From positions 682,001 to 746,000 of the forward strand of contig JAAVVG010000006.1 in assembly GCA_012976225.1 (NCBI GenBank): 64,000 nucleotides of DNA. The letters run 5' to 3'. The notes beneath the pieces are model-generated. The model saw only the letters and a program-made list of their open reading frames with translations, was not told where the DNA came from and did not search any database. The stretch is from Golubevia sp. BC0850. Lineage: Eukaryota; Basidiomycota; Exobasidiomycetes; Golubeviales; Golubeviaceae. This document shows positions 1,734 through 41,342 of this stretch, in pieces (positions within the stretch are counted from its first letter, which is position 1; each line of letters starts with the position of its first letter). The translations under genes were made by a program, and so were the position numbers.

Positions 1734-4700
1734 TTACTCTCCCGCAAAGAGACGTTTGATTCTAGTGAGATGTAAGAGATTCGAGGATCCGGGGTCAGTA
1801 TGGGCGAGGCGTTGCAGAGTACGAGATCAGAGAACTTACAGATAGGTCAAAGTTCCTCCGAAACGGAAAGCAGCAAGAGCTGCAACCGAATAGAGAAGAA
1901 AGGCCATGTAGGTTATTCGAACGTTCTGGCTCGAGACATTGATGATAGCGATTGCTAGGCCAGCATTAGAAAGAGACCAGACTAGAACAACGTTGGTTCT
2001 GACAGTAGCGTAATCTAGAGATGGCAGACAGAGAAAGAGGAGAGAGGAGTCAGTAAAAGAATGGAAGATCGACTTTTCTGAAGAATCACTTACAATCGGC
2101 TTGTTTCAGATCTACATCCACCTTCTTCTCTTCACGAGGGGCTTTCACTGTTAGAACGTGACAAGCATCATCGTAGGCATCGTTAATGTCTTTGCTCTCA
2201 GTAGGAATGGCGACGTCAACTTGATTTGCATTGCCACCAGCGTTGACGACTCCAAGATCCGTAGAGACCTTGTCTGATCCTTTGGTACCCCAACTGATGT
2301 CGTGCAAGTTACAGAAGGCGTAGATGTTGATAACGTTGACGAAACTGGATGAGCAGGGAGAGAAGAGAGGAGACGTGTCAGCTGAGAAGTTGACTTGTAG
2401 GAATGCGAACCTTTGGACACCAACCTTGGAGCCATAAGAAGGTATTGAATGATCGAGGTAAACATGTGGTAAGGTTCGAGCTGCGAGGACAAGAGAGAAG
2501 GAAGAATCAGGTGAGTGCTATGCACAGCTTTGAAACGAGCTTCTTCCTCGACTCTAACTCACGTAAAGCAAAGAAGCGAGAAGCCAGATACCAAAAGTAG
2601 CAACGATGGAGATGACGATGTTGACGAAGATCGGATCGGTCAAGAGTTTCTCAGCTCCATCAGCATTTTGCTCGGCAGTGATGATGCTCGAGACAGCTAG
2701 ATAAATCGCAGCTCCAGTCATGTAGACCGTCAACGCTGCAAAGACCATCATGCTCAAGATGAACTGCCATTTACTACCTGCGGGTCTATTTCCCATAGAA
2801 AGGAGGAAGCAGAAGATGATGAAAGCTACGTAGATGTAGCTCAGAATGATGTTTGGGATGTGTAGGGCCGGGACCTTTTCTGACATGGCGTTGGTTAGAA
2901 TACTGAAAGCGATGAAGAAGTTAGCCATTCCGAACCAAGCGAAGAGTAGAGTGATGATTTGATAGAGGAGCTCGATGTGAAGAGCGAATTTCCTACCAAA
3001 CGAGTGACTTGATCTGTAGATGTAACCGAACTTGACGATCGAGTGGATACCAGCGAAGAAACTTCCGTTCAACCATCTTCTTCTTTGACTGATGAGTTCT
3101 GAGAAAGTCAAAAAAGGAGAACGGAGAATGAGTACTTGATTGCACTTGGTTTCCATCTCGCACCTCCCTCAACTCACCTGGAACTTGATCTGGAACGTCA
3201 GTGACGGCTTGAGCAGACTTGACGTAATGAAGAATCCAAGCACAGTCTCTCTTAGACACCAGCTCCCAACATAGAATACGATCCCTGATGATGATGGAGA
3301 AGGAAGGGAGATCTGAGTCAGTCGAGTTTTCTCACTTCAGAGACCGAACAGTCTCTCCCAAAAAGAAGAACTCACTCTGCAAGATACATGTTACTCGTGA
3401 ATATATCGGCGTCTGATCCACCACCATGAAGAGTCTCTCCCTTGAAGTAAGAGCAGAGGGGCCCTTGTCCGACAGAGTCGTTCTGAAGAGCGATGTATCG
3501 ATAGGCAGAGAAAGCACCCGGAAGCACGCTTTTGAAGATCAGGGAATGGATAGGGTCAGTGAAATAGAAGAATGATGAAGCCTGAGGACCAACAAACTTA
3601 CGTGATGTAGCCAAAGACAGATTCAAGAGGCTTATCGAGCTGTAGAACAAGGGAGGCGACGAAGCGGATTAGCGGACTGAGCGCTGAGAGCTGAAAACCA
3701 ATCTCTTCACACTCACGATATTACTCATTTTGTATTCGAAATTCTGAGCAGCGACTAGAGGATTGAAGAGCTGGCCCCAGTACTTTCCTTTGAGAGCCAC
3801 AATCTGGAGAAGAGAGAGTGAGGGTCAGGTCAATTCAATCAGCTACTACTCTTGGGACGAATATTTGAAACGCATCACAGTACTGACCTCTCCACAAGCT
3901 CCTCCGACATTAGAATTGATATCGAAAGCTTTCCATAGATGGTAGATGCTCTTGGACCTGGGCATAGTTCCGACATCTAGTAGAACACAAACGTTTGGTT
4001 GTAGGACTTGACCGAAAGCATTGAAGAACCAACGATGAGAATTGATTTTCTTTTGATTCCTTTCTTTCAAGCAGAAGAGAATCTGAACTGGCATGATCCC
4101 TTTCTCGCGACCTCTGAAACGAAGCTCTGGGTCGATGGAAAGTTGAGTGGTGTATCTGCGAAGCGGAATCAAGAGAAGAGAAATGAGTCAGAAGGTGTGA
4201 GTAGTCCCGTGCTTTCCACTGTCGTCTGGCAGATCGTGGTGCCCTCTCAGTGGAGATAATCCTTCTCGATCGAGAAAGGCAAGGAGAGAACGAAGAAGAA
4301 GCTACTCACTCGTAGATATGAGCAGTGACGGGTTTTCCGTTGACCACATTCTTTCCTACACCTTCTTGATAGACTCCCATAGCAGCTAGGACACTCAAAG
4401 TTCTACTATTGATCTTCAATCTACCATCACTGACGATGCAGACTACCACCTTCTTCCAACCTTCTTTACCCCAAGTCTTCGACCTTTCCCTAGTACAAAG
4501 ATGAGCGATGTTGGTCATCACTCCATGCATCGTTCGTGTGAAGAGCTCTTCATCTTCCTGTAAAGATCGAATGTGGAGCGGGAGAAGTAGATATGAGAGA
4601 TAAGGGAGAGAAAATGGGGACAGGGAAGTCAGAAAAGTTCGCAGTGACTGGAAAATCCCAAGCTAGCACAGCCCCGAAAAACTCAAGACTCGTTACGTCA

Positions 4701-5720
4701 ACCGAAAATTTGTAGAGGACCGGATCGTCAAGCTCCAAGCTGTTTTCCTTGGACCTTGCTCTCAACCCCTGAGCCTGATTGTACTCATTCTGCTATCTCC
4801 AACCCTCCTTGTCCCTGTCTCTATCTTCTTCTTGTGACCTAAATTCAACACCTCTGTTTCGTTTCCCATACTTTAGATCTCCTTCAACTCACGTTATACA
4901 TAGTCAGAACAATGAACAATTCAGTCCTCCTTGGAGGATCAAACAGAATCTGTCTCAAGTTATACCTCTCCTCCTTAAAGTGATCCGGATCACAAGTAGC
5001 AGCGGTATATCTCATGTGAGTGAATTCTCTACTTTCTCTATCATTGAGCCTATCCAAAAGCTTACTAGGTACAGGACAATCCAATACCAGATTTCCATGA
5101 TAAAGTTCAACTCTCTTTAAAGTCTTATATCTCCTTGGAACTCTTTGAGGAATCCTTCCATATCTAATCCCGTTTGCTTCACCTTGTTCCATGATACCAG
5201 GATGGAACCCACCTGGCATATAACTTGCAGCATCATCATCGAAGTCTAGAGGTTGACCATCTGGTCCTAGCCTAGCTCTACCTCTTGCTTGACCATCTAC
5301 TTGATCTCCATCTTCTGCATAACCATCTGCAAAAGGTTGAACTTGACCTATATGATTTCCATCTTGATCGAAAGAGGAAGCAGGAGCGTATCCGTAGGGA
5401 CTACCATCTTGAGGTAGCAGGGGAACATCACCTTGATCTAAAGAATGATCTCTGTGATCGTTATTACTTGGGATTGCATAGATTCCACCACCTAATTCCG
5501 ACATTCTACGACCATGATCTTGCTGCGAGTTGTAGTCATCGTACGATTGTCGGTTGAATGGATCTGAATGGTGTGGTTGAGGTGAATCATCCTGTGGGTG
5601 ATGCTGTCCTTGTCCTTGTCCTTGCTGTTGAGAGTATGGATCGTATTGTTGACCTTGAGTTGGTGGAGCTCCTTCATCGTAAGTTGGATATGAAGAATGA
5701 CCGAAGCCTCTTGGTGGCAT
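1734..5720 (-). CDS. Chitin synthase (division 1, class I-III type), 924 aa, 12 exons
   Basis: Membrane GT2 enzyme that polymerises UDP-GlcNAc into cell-wall chitin. Exons: 5720-4893, 4557-4310, 4155-3888, 3803-3717, 3639-3602, 3528-3376, 3284-3178, 3098-2563, 2480-2425, 2344-2094, 2014-1840, 1761-1734; the sum, 2775 nt, is in frame. The N-terminal ~180 residues are Gln/Pro/Asp-rich and disordered. The CHS N-terminal domain includes [20 protein letters not shown]. Then come LTMYNEDE, the [20 protein letters not shown] block, the [16 protein letters not shown] region, [10 protein letters not shown] and the catalytic QRRRW near residue 580. C-terminal hydrophobic segments follow. Reading through the last GTAAGT would give an early stop; splicing it adds a 28-nt terminal exon ending IKRLFAGE, a tail typical of the family. 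Intron 1 is long (335 nt). The class within division 1 would need a tree. Confidence 0.95.
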
Positions 5721-6217
5721 GAGTAGAAGTTGTTTAGGGAGTTAGGGGCTGGTGGAAGGTTTGCTGCGAGTGGGAATGTCGCCTTCTTCAGTCTTCTTTT
5801 CACTTGAGGTTTTTGATCTTCTACTGAACCTTATGATGATCAGATGAAAAAGCAAAGAACTGAGCTTTTGAAGTAGCTCAGCAGTAGAAGTGAGGGGCTG
5901 TGTTGCGTAGATGGTGTTGTTCTACATTCAAACAAGGTGTGCCCCTTCGGATTTGAGCGGCTCAAGAGGAAATTGACCTGCAAAGTATGGAATCAGTATC
6001 CAACCTTCCTCAAAATCACAATGATGATATGATAATAGTAGTAGGTGAAAACATCAACTACGTACAAGGTATCAGAGCTCACAGCCCTCCCTCGGTCCCT
6101 CCCTCCCCCTTCTCATCTTCAGCCAGGTATTCGAATTTGTTCTCTTTCACACATGATCTCGCAAATGAATCAAAAGAAATTTCGAAGGTGATCTACAACT
6201 ACATTTTACAGTAAGAA
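5721..6217. other. Intergenic gap, chitin synthase promoter region
   Basis: About 500 bp between the chitin synthase start and the stop of the next minus-strand gene. I see no convincing reading frame or RNA gene. It should hold the chitin synthase promoter and the 3' end of the CmcJ-like gene. A pyrimidine-rich run lies around 6090-6120. Confidence 0.5.
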
Positions 6218-7370
6218 TCAGACAATCTTCTTCTCCGTGATGGTCAAGACTCTAACTTCCACACTCCACCTTGCGGGATCCGAATCTTTTGTCTTAGGAT
6301 CAGAGAACGAAGTGTGAGGAGTTCTGGTTTCCGTTTCCGAGTCATAACACTTCAACAGAACCGCCTTTGTAGTTGGGAAATCCGAGAGGTAGTACCATCG
6401 ATGTGCTGGAGACGAGTGAATCTGAAGGGTCAAAGAGATGGGGGATAAGAGTATCAGACTCATCCGGCGGAACGCTGATTTGACTCGGACCTTGATGTGA
6501 TTTCTCACAGGACCCGATGCTGCTTTGATACTGAAGAGATTAGTCGACTCACCATCAAAATCTCTCCACTTCCATCTTTTCGCTTGAGCTCAGACTCTCT
6601 CCAATCAGGTTCTTTTCCTTCTCCACCGGGAGAGACAGTCCTAGAATCGGCCATAGCTAAAGGTGTACCTTTGACTGGACCTCTAAGCGGTCTCCAAACG
6701 TTTACTAACTGCGCCTGGAGATCACCATTTAATACCTTATTCAAAGTGTCTTGGCCTAAATGCTTTGCTATTCTAGCCTCTCCTGCCTTCCTTGATTGAT
6801 CTGAGTGAGCATAAGGGACAGGCAGCCGATTTTGTGGATCGTCTGGCAAGTGTTCGTCTATGAACGATTGGATGAGAAGAGAAAGAAAGCCGGGGCTTGA
6901 GCTTTCGCTCAAAGTATCTTTCTCCAAAGTTCCTACTCACCTCCTTTCTCTCTTCTCTTTCTAACAGTATGATCGAATATGAAAGTTCTATCCACTCCGA
7001 GTTCTCTCTTTATCAACGAATCGATGTCAGAATAGTAGGTCTCTTTAATCCACTCGTCCTTCTCCCATGCTTCATCTGCCCAACCTTTGGAAGTCTCGTC
7101 GATTCCAAATCCATCAACAAATTGAAATCCTGCTTGTTCAGTTGAGAATCCTGCTCTCATAAGGTCCGAAGAAGCCACATCTTTTAAATCGGTGATCTTA
7201 ACCGTAGGAGAATCAAACTTCTGATTAGATACTTCTTCCCCTTCTGGAGTTTCACTTGGAGTAACCCAGACGTACGGCTTCTTGACCGATCTTGAAAGGT
7301 AGTTGATACCGGCTTCGACGAATGGCTGATCTTTGAAGAGCGCTTGAGGTTCAGTGAGAGCAGTTGGCAT
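6218..7370 (-). CDS. CmcJ/AsaB/GA4-desaturase-like non-haem oxygenase, 312 aa
   Basis: Member of the fungal-bacterial family that includes CmcJ (cephem methoxylation), AsaB and GA4 desaturase-like proteins, regarded as Fe(II)/2-oxoglutarate-type oxidoreductases. Three exons: 7370-6941, 6857-6553, 6421-6218, summing to 939 nt in frame. Family landmarks in order: an N-terminal segment with NYLSRSVKKPYVWVTP, the DRTFIFDHTVRKRRE stretch, the metal-site-like YAHSDQS, the VNVWRPLRGPVKGTPLAMAD block, HRWYYLSDF, and the C-terminal KCYDSET and PHTSFSDP motifs. Length matches the family (about 280-320 residues). No signal peptide. Neighbours are housekeeping genes, with no biosynthetic cluster around it, so its substrate is unknown. 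An annotator missing the introns would break it into three pieces. Confidence 0.85.
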
Positions 7371-7832
7371 TTTGAGGGTTTGAAAGGTTCGAAACAGAGC
7401 TGTTCTTGAACTCGTTGTAATTCAAGCTGGGACTCGAGTGAGATGAATGAAAGAAAAGTACGGAAGAAGTTGGGAGAAAGGGGTAAAGGAAAAGTCACAA
7501 GATTTGGCCATCGTCCTATTGTTCGGGATTTGGACGGGATGACGCAATCTCTTTTCGCCAACAAGGTTCAGACGTTCAGTGGACGATGAGTCTATCGTTT
7601 GAAATTCACAGAAGATATCCATGCAGAGACATCTAAGAAGCAATCGCAGATAAGAGACAACATAAGTAGCGAGGCCGGATGGAGAAGAAAAGGAACAATT
7701 AAAAGTTGAGCTCTAGATTTTTTCAAGGGAGTGAGTAAAAGACATATCTCGAGAGAGATCGCTAATTTGAGGTTGCAGAGTTCAAGAAGATGAGATAGAG
7801 AATGAAACTGAGATCGAGACGAAGGATTCCTC
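7371..7832. other. Intergenic gap, promoter of CmcJ-like gene
   Basis: 462 bp between the CmcJ-like start codon and the asparagine synthetase stop, both on the minus strand. No supported gene or RNA; short open frames on the minus strand carry no recognisable motif. Confidence 0.5.
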
Positions 7833-10551
7833 TTACTCCTTCTTTGCGTTGTAGGCAGAGTCATGAATCGCGACGGAACGACCAGATGGGTCACTATGGA
7901 CAAGAAAAAGTGGGAAGGAGATCAGTATCAGAGACAGACATTCAAGAACAAAGATTGGAAAGTCTACTCACCTAGCACAACCCCAGTCACCTCTTGGTAC
8001 CCATCTGACAGCAGTTCTAGCGGCCTCCTCTCCTCCAAACCATCCTTCAAAGACCTCCCTGATCCAGTAAGCTTCCTTAGTATCTGGAGTATCGACTGGA
8101 TATCTCTTGGTCCTCTGGGCGAATTTGTCATCAGTGACATGGCTCTCTGCGAACTCCTTCATTCCATCGATCCAAGAATAACCAACTCCATCAGAGAATT
8201 GTTCCTTCTGTCTCCACAGAATATCATCCGGAAGATAGGCCTTTCCTGATTTCTTAGAAGGTTCGATAGAAGGGTCTAAGTCATCTGGCTTGACGTCGAA
8301 AGCTTTTCTTAACAGGTACTTCTCCATTTGAGGTCTTCCATCAGCATCGTTAGTTTGATGTAAACCCTTTCCGAACATCTTCTCCTTAGCATCAATGTTC
8401 ATTGATAGATCCAAGAAGCTCTTGTCTAAGAATGGAACTCTTGCTTCCAATCCCCAAGCCATCGTGGACTTGTTAGCTCTGAGACAATCGGCTGTGTGTA
8501 GGTTCTTGACTCTTCTGACACATTCTTGATGGAACGACTTGGCATCTGGAGCAGCGTGGAAGTAAAGGTAACCTCCATAGATTTCGTCGGATCCTTCTCC
8601 AGACAAAACCATCTTGACTCCCATAGCTTTGATCTTTCTCGAAAGTAGGTACATTGGAGTTGAAGCTCTGACTGTTGTCACATCGTAGGTTTCCAGATGG
8701 TAGATGACATCTGCGATAGCGTCTAAACCTTCTTGAACTGTGAATGTATGTTCGTGATGAACCGTTCCTAGATATCTAGCAGCAGACCTGGCTGCCATCA
8801 GATCTGGAGAGCCTGGAAGACCGATCGAGAAGGAGTGAAGTCTTGGCCAAGAAGCTAGAGTGTCTGCTTCGTTCTCAGCGTCCTCGTCGATTCCTACTGG
8901 AAGTCCATCAGGAGCTCCTCCGGATGGAGTAGCAGTTCCAGAGCTGATTCCCTTCTGCTTAGCTTCCCTACGCTTCTCGTAAGCTAACCTCTGAATCTCC
9001 GCCATCTTGTCGGTTTCTCTAGCAGCGATAGCAGCGATAAGACTTGAGTCCAATCCTCCAGACAGCAAGACTCCGTAAGGAACCTCAGACATCAGCCTCT
9101 TCTTGACAGCTTTCTCCAAAGATTCTCTGATCTCCTCGAGGTCAGCTTTGTTGGCTGGAATGTCGTCGATTAGATTTCCAGATTGATCCTTCGTCGTTCC
9201 ATCGGTGGAGATCCAGCTTGGGTCGTAGTATCTGATAGTGGCTCCGCTTTCGTAAAGGTCGTTGTTTTGAGGTTTGCTGGAATCCCAGTAGTGACCAGGA
9301 GGGAAAGACCTGACTCTGTCACATTCTTCGTGGATTGCTTTGAGTTCCGATGAGAAGTAGGTCGCTCCTGGGTACTTGTAAGACCATCCCTGATAGAGAG
9401 TAGTGATTCCGATTGGATCTCTGGCTGCGATGCAGACAGCTGGAGAAACGGAGTTGTCCACCAAGACGAAGGAGAACATACCATCCAACATTGACACGAA
9501 GGACGGTCCATGTTCACGGTAGAGGTGGAGAATGACTTCACAGTCAGAGTGAGTCTTGAAGGTTGCTTCCTTGTCTGAAAGGTTCTTGCGAAGAGTTCGG
9601 TGGTTGTAGATCTCTCCGTTAACAGCTAAGATGAGCTTTCCGTCAGCAGAGACGAGTGGCTGAGCTCCGGTGTCTGATAAAGATCAAAGTCAAGGATGCA
9701 AAGGAAGGTAGCAGGTTTAAGGAGGTCAGCGGGCAGGGTTCTTGGGAGAGCAGGAGCAGGAAGAAAGGCCAGCAGGGCGTCGAGTCACCAAAGATAAGCT
9801 TCTCCACTTGGGAAAGAGGCTCATGAGATCTTGCAGAGTGGATTATAGATATCCTGCGATCTGGGAGTAAGATCATCTCGACTGCGACTGAAGGTGATAA
9901 GAGAGGAGGAGGAAGTCCCCACCCGAGAAGATCCTCCAATCTTGGACCCCAAGGGCCCAATCTTTCTGCTCCGAAGTTGCCTCTAAACGTCTTATCTCAT
10001 CTCCGTTTCCCAAACTCTTTGCGATCAGAAAGACAAATTGACTCACCAACTCCTACGATAGCCAATCTCTCATGACAAAGGACGCTACCCTTTTGAGGAG
10101 AAGAAGCGTCTGCTTCATCTGTTACCACACAACCACTCCAATCTGGACCTCTATGCCTGATGCACCTGGAAAGGTTCAACATCTTTTGCCTGTAAGCAGA
10201 TGCCTGTGGATGATGAATACATGCTAGAATACTGTAGTAGAAGTGGGAGGGGTTGCGAGAAGATTAGATTGGACCAGATGAAAGAGGAGAGATGAAAGGA
10301 AGTCGCCCAACTCACCCGCACTAGGAGTACCAGATTTAGAGTAAGTAGAATGAATGTAACCAGTTTGCCAAGAGGAGAGAGAGAAAGAAAGGAGGGCAGA
10401 AGTTTGAGAATTGGACCAAGAGATTAGAAGAAGGGAGGAAGAAATGATGACTCGGTCAGTCGAATCCTGCTCAGATGGTTTCTCGTGTGCTAACAGAAGT
10501 GAAGACAGTAGAACTCTGATCTGATTGGTTCCCTAGCTAGATAGTTACCAT
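7833..10551 (-). CDS. Asparagine synthetase (glutamine-hydrolysing), 651 aa, with a 5-nt microexon
   Basis: Makes asparagine from aspartate, ATP and glutamine. Proposed exons: 10551-10549 (ATG only), 10320-10316 (TGCGG), 10231-10047, 9673-7972, 7893-7833; sum 1956 nt, in frame. Together the first three read [20 protein letters not shown], giving the Cys2 nucleophile of the class II glutaminase domain. Then come [37 protein letters not shown], the synthetase ATP loop LLSGGLDSS near residue 270 and [13 protein letters not shown]. The last exon gives [19 protein letters not shown]. Every junction is GT-AG: donors GTAACT, GTGAGT, GTGAGT, GTGAGT. The protein is longer than yeast ASN1 (572 aa), partly from an insert after [11 protein letters not shown] containing many Lys/Arg/Gly. 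Intron 3 is unusually long (373 nt). Identity is certain; the 5' micro-structure is inferred. Confidence 0.93.
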
Positions 10552-38464: not shown

Positions 38465-41342
38465 ATGCAAGTCACCAAGATCGCTCTTTCTTTGGCTTTT
38501 GTCTCTTCCCTATCCCTAGTGTCTGCTGCTCCGATCCAGGTGAGTGAACATCACAAACCCCGAACAACTTCCAATCTCTCAATTACGGACTGACAACGCA
38601 TTTTTCGAATCCATAACAGGAGAAGCCTGAAGACGTAGTCGACAAGAGACTCAACGCTGCAGGTTAGTTGCGAATGAGTTTCATCTGATAGTTGTTCGTT
38701 TCTCTTACACCATCTCACTTTCTTCTCTCCCAAAAATGTAGGTCTCGGTGCTACCATCTTTGCTGGTACCGCAATCTACAACGGACTCAAGGGAAATGGA
38801 TATATCAAAGAGGCTGAAGAATTCAAACAACAGTTTGGTGTGAGTGCTCAATACAGCCTCTCTCAGCATTCGATTGAAGTCAAAGTCAGTTCTAATTTTT
38901 TAATTTTTTTTCACCCTTCCTCCCTTCCAGGTTCAAGAATCTTCTCCAGAAAAGAGATTGAATGCAGCAGCTATGATCGGCCTTACTGGTGGAGCGGTGA
39001 GCATCGGATTCCCAAAACCCAAGACTCTTTCCTTTTGATCCCCGTGAACTAACCAGCTCTACATCTCTCCTCTCCTTCTCAGGTCCTCAAAGGTATCTTC
39101 GGCTCAAAGGAAGCAGCAGATGAGTTCCTTGCTACCGATCAAGGAAAGGAATTCGCCTCCAAGCTTGCCTCCGTCGAATCTAGAGATTTCAACGACACAG
39201 ACGAAGAAATGGAGAAGAGATTGAGCATTCCTTTCATCGGTGCCAGAGTTCTCCACTATCTCGGAAAGATCAAGGTCTCCAAAGAGGCTCTTCAAGAACG
39301 TTCTGAATCTCCAGAAAAGAGACTCTCGTGGGGAAAGGCAGCTGCTGGAGCAGCTGCAGCAGTGGTCGGATGTGAGTGTGGCTTTGAAGAGTATGATGAC
39401 TTTCGATCCCTGGCTTCTTGTTTGGTTCCGCTCCCGAGCTGAGCACAACTTTACCTTCCATGTCTACTTTCTTACTCTACAGGGTTTACTACAAAGGAAG
39501 GTCAAGACTTCTTAGCCACTCAAGAAGGTCAAGACTTTGTCTCAAAACTGGCAGTCAACGATGTCGAAGCTAGAGATGTTGACGTTGTGAGTTTTTCTTG
39601 ACTTCTTCAAGTCTATCTACTCCCCCCACCCTACTCCCGATGACTCATCCCCTTGACTCGTTTCTATCAATCCTCGACTCCAGCCTTCCAATTCTTCTGG
39701 GAAGAGACTAAACGCTGCTGGTGAGTTTATTTGGGATAAGGCAAGAAGTTCTGCCTATATCTCATGCAATCTCTCTCTCTCTCCTTCCAGGTATCGGCGC
39801 AAGTGTCTTTGCTGCTACGGCCATCTACAATGGGTTGAAAGGAAACGGATACATCAAGGAGGCTGAAGAGTTCAAGCAGACTTACGGAGTGAGTTCTTCT
39901 TTCGACGCTTCTTTTTTCAACCATATCGACATTCGGAAACTCTCGTTCAGTCCTAAGATGGAGAAGATGACCGAGGAAAAGTCTCCACCCAGATGCGTTT
40001 CTGAGGCCAGCTTGTTCTTACCCGCGATTGTCTTCCAACTTTCCTTCTCCAGATCCAAACTCTTGATGGGTCTTCTCCAGAAAAGAGATTGAATGCAGCA
40101 GCCATGATCGGCCTTACCGGTGGAGCAGTGAGTGATCAGTGAAGCCTCGATTCGAAGGAGTTCTCGTTCTTGACTAACGGACGAGACCCCCTTCTCTCAC
40201 TTCCCTTTCCCTTATATCAGATTCTCAAGGGTATCTTCGGATCCAAAGAGGCTACTGATGAGTTCTTAGCTTCCTCAGAAGGTCAAGAGTTCGCTTCAAA
40301 GATGGCTGTGAGTGTTTGGTGTCTTAATCTATTTTCTTTCAGGGATGTTCAGTCGTCTACAGACTCTCACCCGACTCTCTCTCCCTCTATCTTCAAACAG
40401 TCTATCGAATCTCGCGACCTCAGTGATTCAGAGAAGAGATTCAACGTTCCAGTCTATGCTAAAGTTGCGGGAACTCTAGCTGCAATTGGAGCCTCATTCA
40501 CAGGTGGTTACTTCGCTACTAAAGAAGGTCAAGACGCTCTCGCTGAGTTGACTTCTTCTTCAAAGGATCTCCAAGCCCGTGGAAAGGTCGACTATGGCTA
40601 TTTGGTTGGTGAGTTGTCTTTCTCATCGCTTCCCTGCTCCCTCTTGAAATTTCCACTAACTTCGATCGTCTCTCTTCCAATCTTAACCCTTTCCACCTCC
40701 TCAGCTGGAATCATCAGTGCCTTCAATGCTATCAGAGCCCGAGATTTAGATGAAGATGTCGAGCTCGAAAAGAGACTCAGCTCTGCAGCTTCTATCAAAT
40801 GGGGGTTGGGAGCCGTTGCTGCCGCTTTTGGGGCTGGATCTGTAGTCAAGAACATTGCCACTCGTGACGTAGACGTCGATGACTCTGACTTGATCAACTT
40901 GATCAGAGATCAAGTCAGAGCTGAAGCTCGCAACAATGTTGACGATTTCCAAGCCCGTGGAAAGGTCGACTATGGCTATTTGGCTGGTGAGTTGTCTTTC
41001 TCATCGCTTCCCTGCTCCCTCTTGAAATCCCCACTAACTTCGATCGTCTCTCTTCCAATCTTCACCCTTTCCACCTCCTCAGCTGGAATCATCAGTGCCT
41101 TCAATGCTATCAGAGCCCGAGATTTAGATGAAGATGTCGAGCTCGAAAAGAGACTCAGCTCTGCAGCTTCTATCAAATGGGGGTTGGGAGCCGTTGCTGC
41201 CGCTTTTGGGGCTGGATCTGTAGTCAAGAACATTGCCACTCGTGACGTAGACGTCGATGACTCTGACTTGATCAACTTGATCAGAGATCAAGTCAGAGCT
41301 GAAGCTCGCAACAATGTTGACGATTTCGATCTTTTGGGTTAG
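38465..41342 (+). CDS. Secreted Kex2-processed repeat precursor with nine Lys-Arg sites, 573 aa, 13 exons
   Basis: Exons: 38465-38539, 38620-38662, 38742-38839, 38931-38996, 39083-39371, 39483-39586, 39684-39720, 39791-39888, 40053-40127, 40221-40307, 40401-40608, 40705-40986, 41083-41342; the sum of 1722 nt is in frame. A signal peptide (MQVTKIALSLAFVSSLSLVS) is followed by KR at about residues 34, 80, 139, 173, 232, 281, 336, 416 and 510, mostly as EKR. After each site comes L/F-N/S and a Gly/Ala-rich hydrophobic run, for example LNAAAMIGLTGGAVLKGIFG, LSIPFIGARVLHYLGKIKV, FNVPVYAKVAGTLAAIGASF and IKWGLGAVAAAFGAGSVVKN. These are often followed by a DEFLA...GxEFASKLA motif and an acidic spacer opening with Arg-Asp (ESRDFND, EARDVDV, ESRDLSD, RARDLDED). 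The plan fits fungal Kex2-processed repeat proteins, a group that includes repellent-like peptides, peptide precursors and Ece1-type proteins. I recognise no homologue; peptide function is unknown. Confidence 0.85.
40571..41326 (+). repeat. 378-bp tandem duplication, intron included
   Basis: Copy 1 is 40571-40948 and copy 2 is 40949-41326, head to tail inside the repeat-precursor gene. Each copy spans an exon end, a 96-nt intron and most of the next exon. Reading by eye, the exon parts after the intron look identical; the introns differ at about three sites and one exon codon differs (GTT versus GCT before the donor). This adds one 94-residue peptide unit to the precursor. Confidence 0.9.

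Follow-up and report, generated by a model that had tools for sequence, protein, structure and literature searches.

Kex2-processed repeat proteins (KEPs) have been described from fungi, where they are widespread (PMC6339444, PMC7329392, PMC9769878). To be listed in either of two KEP surveys, a protein must have three or more similar repeats between its Kex2 sites (PMC6339444, PMC7329392), and 1114 of the 1193 KEPs in one of these surveys have a single motif type (PMC6339444). Rep1 of Ustilago maydis has ten strongly conserved repeats, with amphipathic peptides between its Kex2 sites (PMC2515848), and these peptides form amyloid-like fibrils (PMC7329392, PMC9769878). Ece1 of Candida albicans, with orthologues reported in three Candida species, is a secreted polyprotein from which cleavage at KR gives eight different peptides, one or more of them helical and membrane-active (PMC12153327). 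Here and below, statements on published systems refer to the portions available of the papers cited.

The gene analyzed here lies in a window of 64,000 nt (the whole stretch of DNA under analysis) from Golubevia sp. BC0850. Its product resembles KEPs in having a signal peptide and KR sites spread throughout, with peptides expected between them; further likenesses are the Ste13-like Glu/Asp-Pro after some sites of its paralogues and the apparent monobasic cuts reported for some KEPs. It differs in that its segments are mostly unlike one another, the best groups being pairs, with about seven motif types by our own lettering. In our approximation of the survey criteria, applied to the window protein and distinct from the published pipelines, cleavage in silico at KR/RR left ten fragments after the signal region, where at least four are asked for, and three similar repeats were not found. 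The precursor thus would work like a KEP, yet would probably not be listed as one.

In design, Ece1 is the closest known system, being likewise a KR-separated polyprotein of different peptides; it has orthologues in three species, against a family of about 30 genes here. What the protein shares with Rep1 is that Kex2 sites in a secreted precursor delimit several amphipathic peptides, but there the repeats are conserved and number about ten, whereas here we find mixed modules predicted, at low confidence, to be helical. Ustiloxin-type cyclic RiPPs (dikaritins) also derive from a Kex2-cut secreted precursor, with short repeated cores instead of long modules; a search for UstYa (DUF3328) gave 0 matches in this genome, and none in the control genomes either. 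What looks new is this family, its mixed modules and its recurrent DLLG tail, whereas the class to which it belongs (KEPs, Ece1/candidalysin, Rep1) is known.

Gene model and layout of the precursor

The 13 exons of the gene (Table 1) were returned identically by a dynamic-programming gene finder at intron penalties of 6 and 7; at penalties of 3 and 5 the 13-exon model was not recovered, and the gene finder overruns the 3′ end there. The codon table of the gene finder came from the open reading frames of the window plus the window gene, and its splice model from the introns of that same gene. Because it was trained partly on the gene itself, the agreement is a consistency check and not independent proof. 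We consider the gene model well supported.

Table 1. Positions of the precursor gene, its exons and its modules in the window (modules lettered in this analysis).
Feature	Position	Strand	Remarks
Whole gene	38465..41342	+	13 exons, 12 introns of 70-164 bp; 573-aa precursor, 9 KR
Exons 1-5	38465-38539, 38620-38662, 38742-38839, 38931-38996, 39083-39371	+	Gene model
Exons 6-9	39483-39586, 39684-39720, 39791-39888, 40053-40127	+	Gene model
Exons 10-13	40221-40307, 40401-40608, 40705-40986, 41083-41342	+	Gene model
Signal-peptide-like N-terminus (MQVTKIALSLAFVSSLSLVSAA)	38465..38530	+	Pattern common to paralogues; signal end assumed
Module A: LNAAGLGATIFAGTAIYNGLKGNGYIKEAEEFKQQFGVQESSPEKR	38650..38957	+	Residues 36-81
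Module B: Gly/Ala-rich stretch, KEA stretch, VESR|D, acidic spacer, EKR	38958..39220	+	Residues 82-140
Module G: LSIPFIGARVLHYLGKIKVSKEALQERSESPEKR	39221..39322	+	Residues 141-174; missing in closest paralogue L023
Module C: LSWGKAAAGAAAAVVGWFTTKEGQDF..., VEAR|D	39323..39707	+	Residues 175-233
Module A'	39708..40088	+	Residues 234-282; second A copy; introns at equivalent places and phases
Module B'	40089..40439	+	Residues 283-337; second B copy
Module D (FNVPVYAKVAG...LQAR) and module E (GKVDYGYLVAGIISAFNAIRAR|D...)	40440..40775	+	Residues 338-417
Module F (LSSAASIKWGLGAVAAAFGAGSVVKNIATR|D...) and second module E	40776..41153	+	Residues 418-511
Module F' and C-terminal tail ...NNVDDFDLLG	41154..41339	+	Residues 512-573

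The original prediction, made from the letters of this DNA, had described a signal peptide and nine KR sites, mostly EKR, in 573 residues, each site followed by L/F and then N/S, with an acidic spacer opening with Arg-Asp after most segments. All these features were borne out. The sites comprise seven EKR, one DKR and one GKR, the two next residues are as described at all nine, and such a spacer is present in six of the nine segments that come after a KR. The start of the protein is taken as a signal peptide from its hydrophobicity and its likeness to 19 other N-termini at paralogue loci, with an assumed end after residue 22. In 5000 shuffles of the mature sequence, KR occurred 1.9 times on average and at most 8 times. 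The segments after KR are 34–94 residues long, and at full length they are at least 70 % identical (ungapped) as three pairs only: A/A', B/B' and the last two.

The modules follow each other in the order A-B-G-C-A'-B'-D-E-F-E-F', against A-B-C-A'-B'-D-E-F in L023 and A-B-D-F in paralogues L029 and L030, all lettering and assignments being those of this analysis. From an alignment of ten copies, module E reads RGKxDYG...IISxFNAIR and variants. The gene carries an in-frame tandem duplication of 378 bp on the + strand (window 40570-41325, as 40570-40947 plus 40948-41325), which spans an intron. Compared over 380 bp, its two copies differ at 4 positions, 3 in the intron and 1 in an exon; L023 has a single copy of this unit. 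DLLG is missing at the end of the internal copy, in keeping with its being a tail.

Elsewhere in the window, positions 3598-9491 (- strand) consist in part of asparagine-synthase-like and chitin-synthase-like stretches, recognized by eye, that are fused in one model. The models of the other window genes are rough, and the neighbors have no evident functional link to the peptide precursor.

A family of about 30 genes in the same genome

Searches with the N-terminus, with the window protein and then with six divergent paralogues yielded 28 further accepted loci in the 25.77-Mb genome. With the window gene this makes 29 loci and, since L036 holds two genes, about 30 genes in all; the locus counts are to be read as "at least". 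The weakly supported members L045 (E 0.03) and L046 (E 0.07) were accepted with the additional evidence of the shared start and a KEA/KEG motif, and L052 on a match of the N-terminal part. Region C7:552500-557500 (L056), with a match of E 6e-4 and weaker ones, was dropped, no member model being obtained. Six contigs that together form ca. 17.6 % of the genome carry 25 of these genes, as counted by hand out of 30: seven on C61, five each on C8 and C17, three each on C12 and C7, and two on C55.

Statistics were calculated on 27 of the 29 models. L027 and L034 were left out, since they gave no full model in the retrained gene-finder run and different, uncertain models in other runs, as was the second L036 gene, whose model overruns into a neighbor; L033 enters as the longer of its models. 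The family sequences are related, and hence not independent, so that the following motif counts are descriptive and not probabilities. There are 77 KR in the 27 models, against 19.6 in shuffles, with Glu preceding 51 and Leu succeeding 42 of them; the motif [LIVF]x[AST]RD occurs 35 times (1.4 in shuffles), and DLLG or KLLGF 19 times (0.4 in shuffles). The C-terminal tail (DFDLLG, DLLGL or KLLGF; 41316-41339 in the window gene) lies within the last 14 residues in 18 models, and KEA or KEG is present in 21. The spacers from RD to KR or RR were net negative in 25 cases out of 25, with a mean of -3.7, in a search whose pattern itself opens with Asp.

Conservation and selection

Comparison of the window gene with L023, its closest paralogue, gave a dS of 0.51, a dN of 0.066 and a dN/dS of 0.13 over 443 codons. 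In nine other pairs dN/dS was 0.19–0.33 in eight and 0.77 in one, several dS values being near saturation. All eleven introns of L023 are at matching places and phases in the window gene, and its seven KR sites all align with a KR of the window protein. Identity was 89 % in the cores (338/379) and 60 % in the spacers (18/30). Kept KR sites and cores, together with spacers that drift but stay acidic, are expected if the cuts and the cores are constrained and the spacer mainly needs its charge. For toxins in an arms race, the purifying selection seen in most pairs would be less typical, which counts against a membrane-active role.

These comparisons also bear on whether the sites are used at all. 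The number of KR varies in the family (14 of the 27 models have at least three, and two lack both KR and RR beyond the signal region), as might be seen if the sites were not used in bulk and the whole or once-cut protein served as a long, flexible helical-repeat protein of the wall or the medium. We regard this as very improbable: against L023 the KR are the best conserved element, while their acidic surroundings drift, the residues flanking KR are strongly non-random and, in some paralogues, Glu/Asp-Pro sits directly between the site and the Leu start. KR sites that are not universal in the family, structure models that are poor, and the lack of Glu/Asp-Pro trimming sites in the window gene count against our leading reading; even so, a secreted polyprotein that is cut into peptides is very probably what the gene encodes.

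Putative processing of the precursor

The genome contains one match to a proprotein convertase (Kex2-type) and one DPP-IV-type (Ste13-type) gene, with models of 1002 and 1021 codons, respectively, including the stop; the types are given by match. The pattern R-(E/D)P-L(N/H/A) is found at 11 sites in ten paralogues, eight of these sites following KR or RR, in a count made without a shuffle control. The window gene has none of these Glu/Asp-Pro trimming sites, and in other copies Leu-Asn comes directly after KR at the place of the (E/D)P-L sites of the paralogues.

From these motifs, the signal peptide would take the precursor into the secretory pathway, and Kex2 would cleave after KR and, in paralogues, after RR too. 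A second, monobasic cut likely falls after [LIVF]x[AST]R and before D, which would part the core from the acidic spacer; mass spectrometry of basidiomycete KEPs found peptides apparently cut after a single Arg, and without the STE13 dipeptide (PMC9769878). In paralogues, a Ste13-type dipeptidyl aminopeptidase would trim Glu/Asp-Pro to leave a Leu start, mostly Leu-Asn. The predicted products, probably about ten from the window protein and ca. 20–50 residues long, would contain a moderately hydrophobic helix, rich in Gly and Ala and with small-xxx-small spacing, after which a KEA/KEG helix often comes, and one precursor would yield several different peptides. The acidic spacers may keep the peptides soluble en route out of the cell, and it is plausible by analogy with Ece1, as had been proposed, that they hold them inactive or soluble until cleavage; in Ece1, the flanking peptides shield the hydrophobic one and are reported to guard against intracellular aggregation, not against self-toxicity (PMC12153327).

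The Ste13-like Glu/Asp-Pro of the paralogues is also a feature of alpha-type pheromone precursors (PMC9769878). It would suit released peptides that act as signals or host-directed effectors, on receptors or host targets, with the diversity of modules reflecting many targets, as would a large, diversified family with few relatives found; moreover, twelve KEP-rich species of one survey interact with plants (PMC6339444). Such a role seems unlikely, because the segments of the window protein are longer than the pheromone cores of 9–24 aa (PMC6339444), so that the short repeated core of an alpha-type precursor is not found, and because the mating pheromones of basidiomycetes are prenylated a-type (PMC9769878).

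Composition, charge and structure models

Gly and Ala make up 38 % of the hydrophobic stretches in the 27 models. The mean KD over 19 residues was at least 1.0 in 61 of 85 segments (of at least 25 aa) and at least 1.6 in 11 of them, so that most segments are hydrophobic only to a moderate degree. The peptides had been predicted to be weakly cationic and to show GxxxG-like spacing, and both descriptions call for correction. Net charge of the window cores ranges from -2 to +3: it is positive in the short modules E (+2), F (+3) and G (+3 with its KR), but -1 to -2, up to the Arg, in the hairpin modules B, B' and C, and 0, with the KR, in A and A'. Within the family's hydrophobic stretches, literal GxxxG does not exceed chance (33 vs. 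30.8 ± 5.0 expected), whereas small-xxx-small spacing of G/A/S is enriched (312 vs. 251.9 ± 9.5 expected); the enrichment of G/A/S spacings peaks at 4 (z = 6.2), with smaller values at 3, 5, and 7. Two single-exon pieces were modeled by AlphaFold as helices without any strand, with low confidence (mean pLDDT of 58 and 49). The first model has coil at its KR sites and where the Ala-rich part of module C starts; in the second the KR sits within a helix.

Near-neutral charge and the packing of small residues would favor assembly, and Rep1 likewise supplies several hydrophobic or amphipathic peptides from one secreted, KR-separated precursor (PMC2515848). In the manner of the Rep1 repellents, the products might be surface-coat peptides that assemble by themselves on the surface of hyphae or cells or at an air-water interface. 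We find this improbable. In contrast to the ten strongly conserved repeats of Rep1, segments at least 70 % identical at full length occur here only as three pairs, about 30 divergent genes are many for a structural coat, and the AlphaFold models, at their low confidence, are helical and without strands. Additionally, 11 of the 14 hydrophobin (PF01185) matches listed, from putative genes, score above the cut-off, so that a coat may already exist.

Most likely, the released peptides would instead act as candidalysin does, by inserting into foreign membranes or assembling on them. Membrane action by itself is possible but slightly doubtful, given the modest hydrophobicity, the net-negative modules B and C, unlike cationic lytic peptides, and the lack of GxxxG enrichment. 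Candidalysin is more cationic and hydrophobic than the present peptides.

Relatives in databases

Pfam held no family for the window protein or for six paralogues; the Pfam matches of the window protein (best E 0.036), under the cut-offs, were dismissed as noise. NCBIfam gave no family for eight pieces of the family, although this library is built for bacteria and archaea and its silence says little. One of eight pieces matched a PHROG at E 0.0053, which looks like noise, as do the PDB profile matches at E 0.1 or worse. No relative was confirmed in the prokaryotic (51 pattern-matching stretches) and viral (16) collections. When 5.8 billion proteins were searched with the whole 573-aa query, none of the 8000 candidates that were scored reached E 0.1.

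Exon-sized profiles were also run against metagenome ORFs and matched at least 13 (profile A4) and at least 4 (profile A6) among 8000 candidates scored each. Thirteen of these 17 ORFs are 97–100 % identical to loci of this genome and by sequence would come from the same or a very close organism. Of the others, P0008 is 90 % identical to L031, and P0009, P0010, and P0011 are clearly divergent, so that three or four metagenome ORFs are the candidate evidence for the family in other species. ORF P0010 has a similar signal-like start, followed by REPLNAAGMIGL...SKEAADEFL...SKLA, which suggests that the precursor design is common to at least one related organism.

We recognized no described family of this kind in the literature covered, which, with most subscription journals lying outside its scope, is a weak sign that none exists. 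The family of about 30 genes for secreted, KR-separated polyproteins is apparently undescribed. The prediction of a Kex2-type polyprotein family of its own is well supported by the number of genes, the purifying selection, the kept KR sites and the silence of Pfam and NCBIfam. Its label "unrecognized" holds for the family, but not for the class, as KEPs are already described and widespread.

Proposed function and significance

Taken whole, our leading reading is evenly balanced: a modular family of Kex2-processed secreted polyproteins that would release different helical peptides, most likely membrane-active. A more elaborate and rather unlikely extension is that the approximately 30 genes form a module-shuffling system with mixed cassettes, in which acidic stretches serve as solubilizers and DLLG serves sorting or processing. 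In its three-protease code, Kex2 would act at KR, a monobasic cut would fall at [LIVF]x[AST]R|D and, in some members, a dipeptidase would trim Glu/Asp-Pro, and the resulting peptide cocktails would form mixed membrane pores or assemblies against competitors, as a fungal counterpart to multi-peptide bacteriocins.

The polyprotein kind described here combines different modules and accounts for about 30 genes in a 25.8-Mb genome. In Coprinopsis cinerea, 22 KEPs are predicted in all (PMC6339444, PMC7329392, PMC9769878), so that number alone is nothing new, but in the available portions of these papers they do not appear as one family. Both surveys seek similar repeats, and families of mixed modules would be under-counted wherever three of these are required. 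Should the peptides be released, a single fungus would produce a large and varied mixture of helical peptides to which the family libraries searched contain no relative. Membrane biology, work on fungal competition and peptide discovery would then gain new material. The acidic spacers and the conserved C-terminal tail offer testable predictions on how hydrophobic peptides are handled in the secretory pathway.

Other observations in the genome

Two pairs of hydrophobin (PF01185) matches on contig C6, at ca. 82 kb/178 kb and 477 kb/528 kb, have identical scores and opposite orientation within each pair, which suggests inverted duplications or an effect of the assembly. Small secreted-looking proteins with ELERR/NRR sites adjoin family members at L040 (C7:412500-417000, + strand) and L051 (C33:1211500-1217000, + strand). 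At L037 (C12:369500-374000, - strand), a neighboring secreted-looking protein with RR has two similar NGKD stretches, one of them cationic (VIVNGKDYGVTPLGRAGRIWKFLGRV...), and is possibly another peptide precursor.
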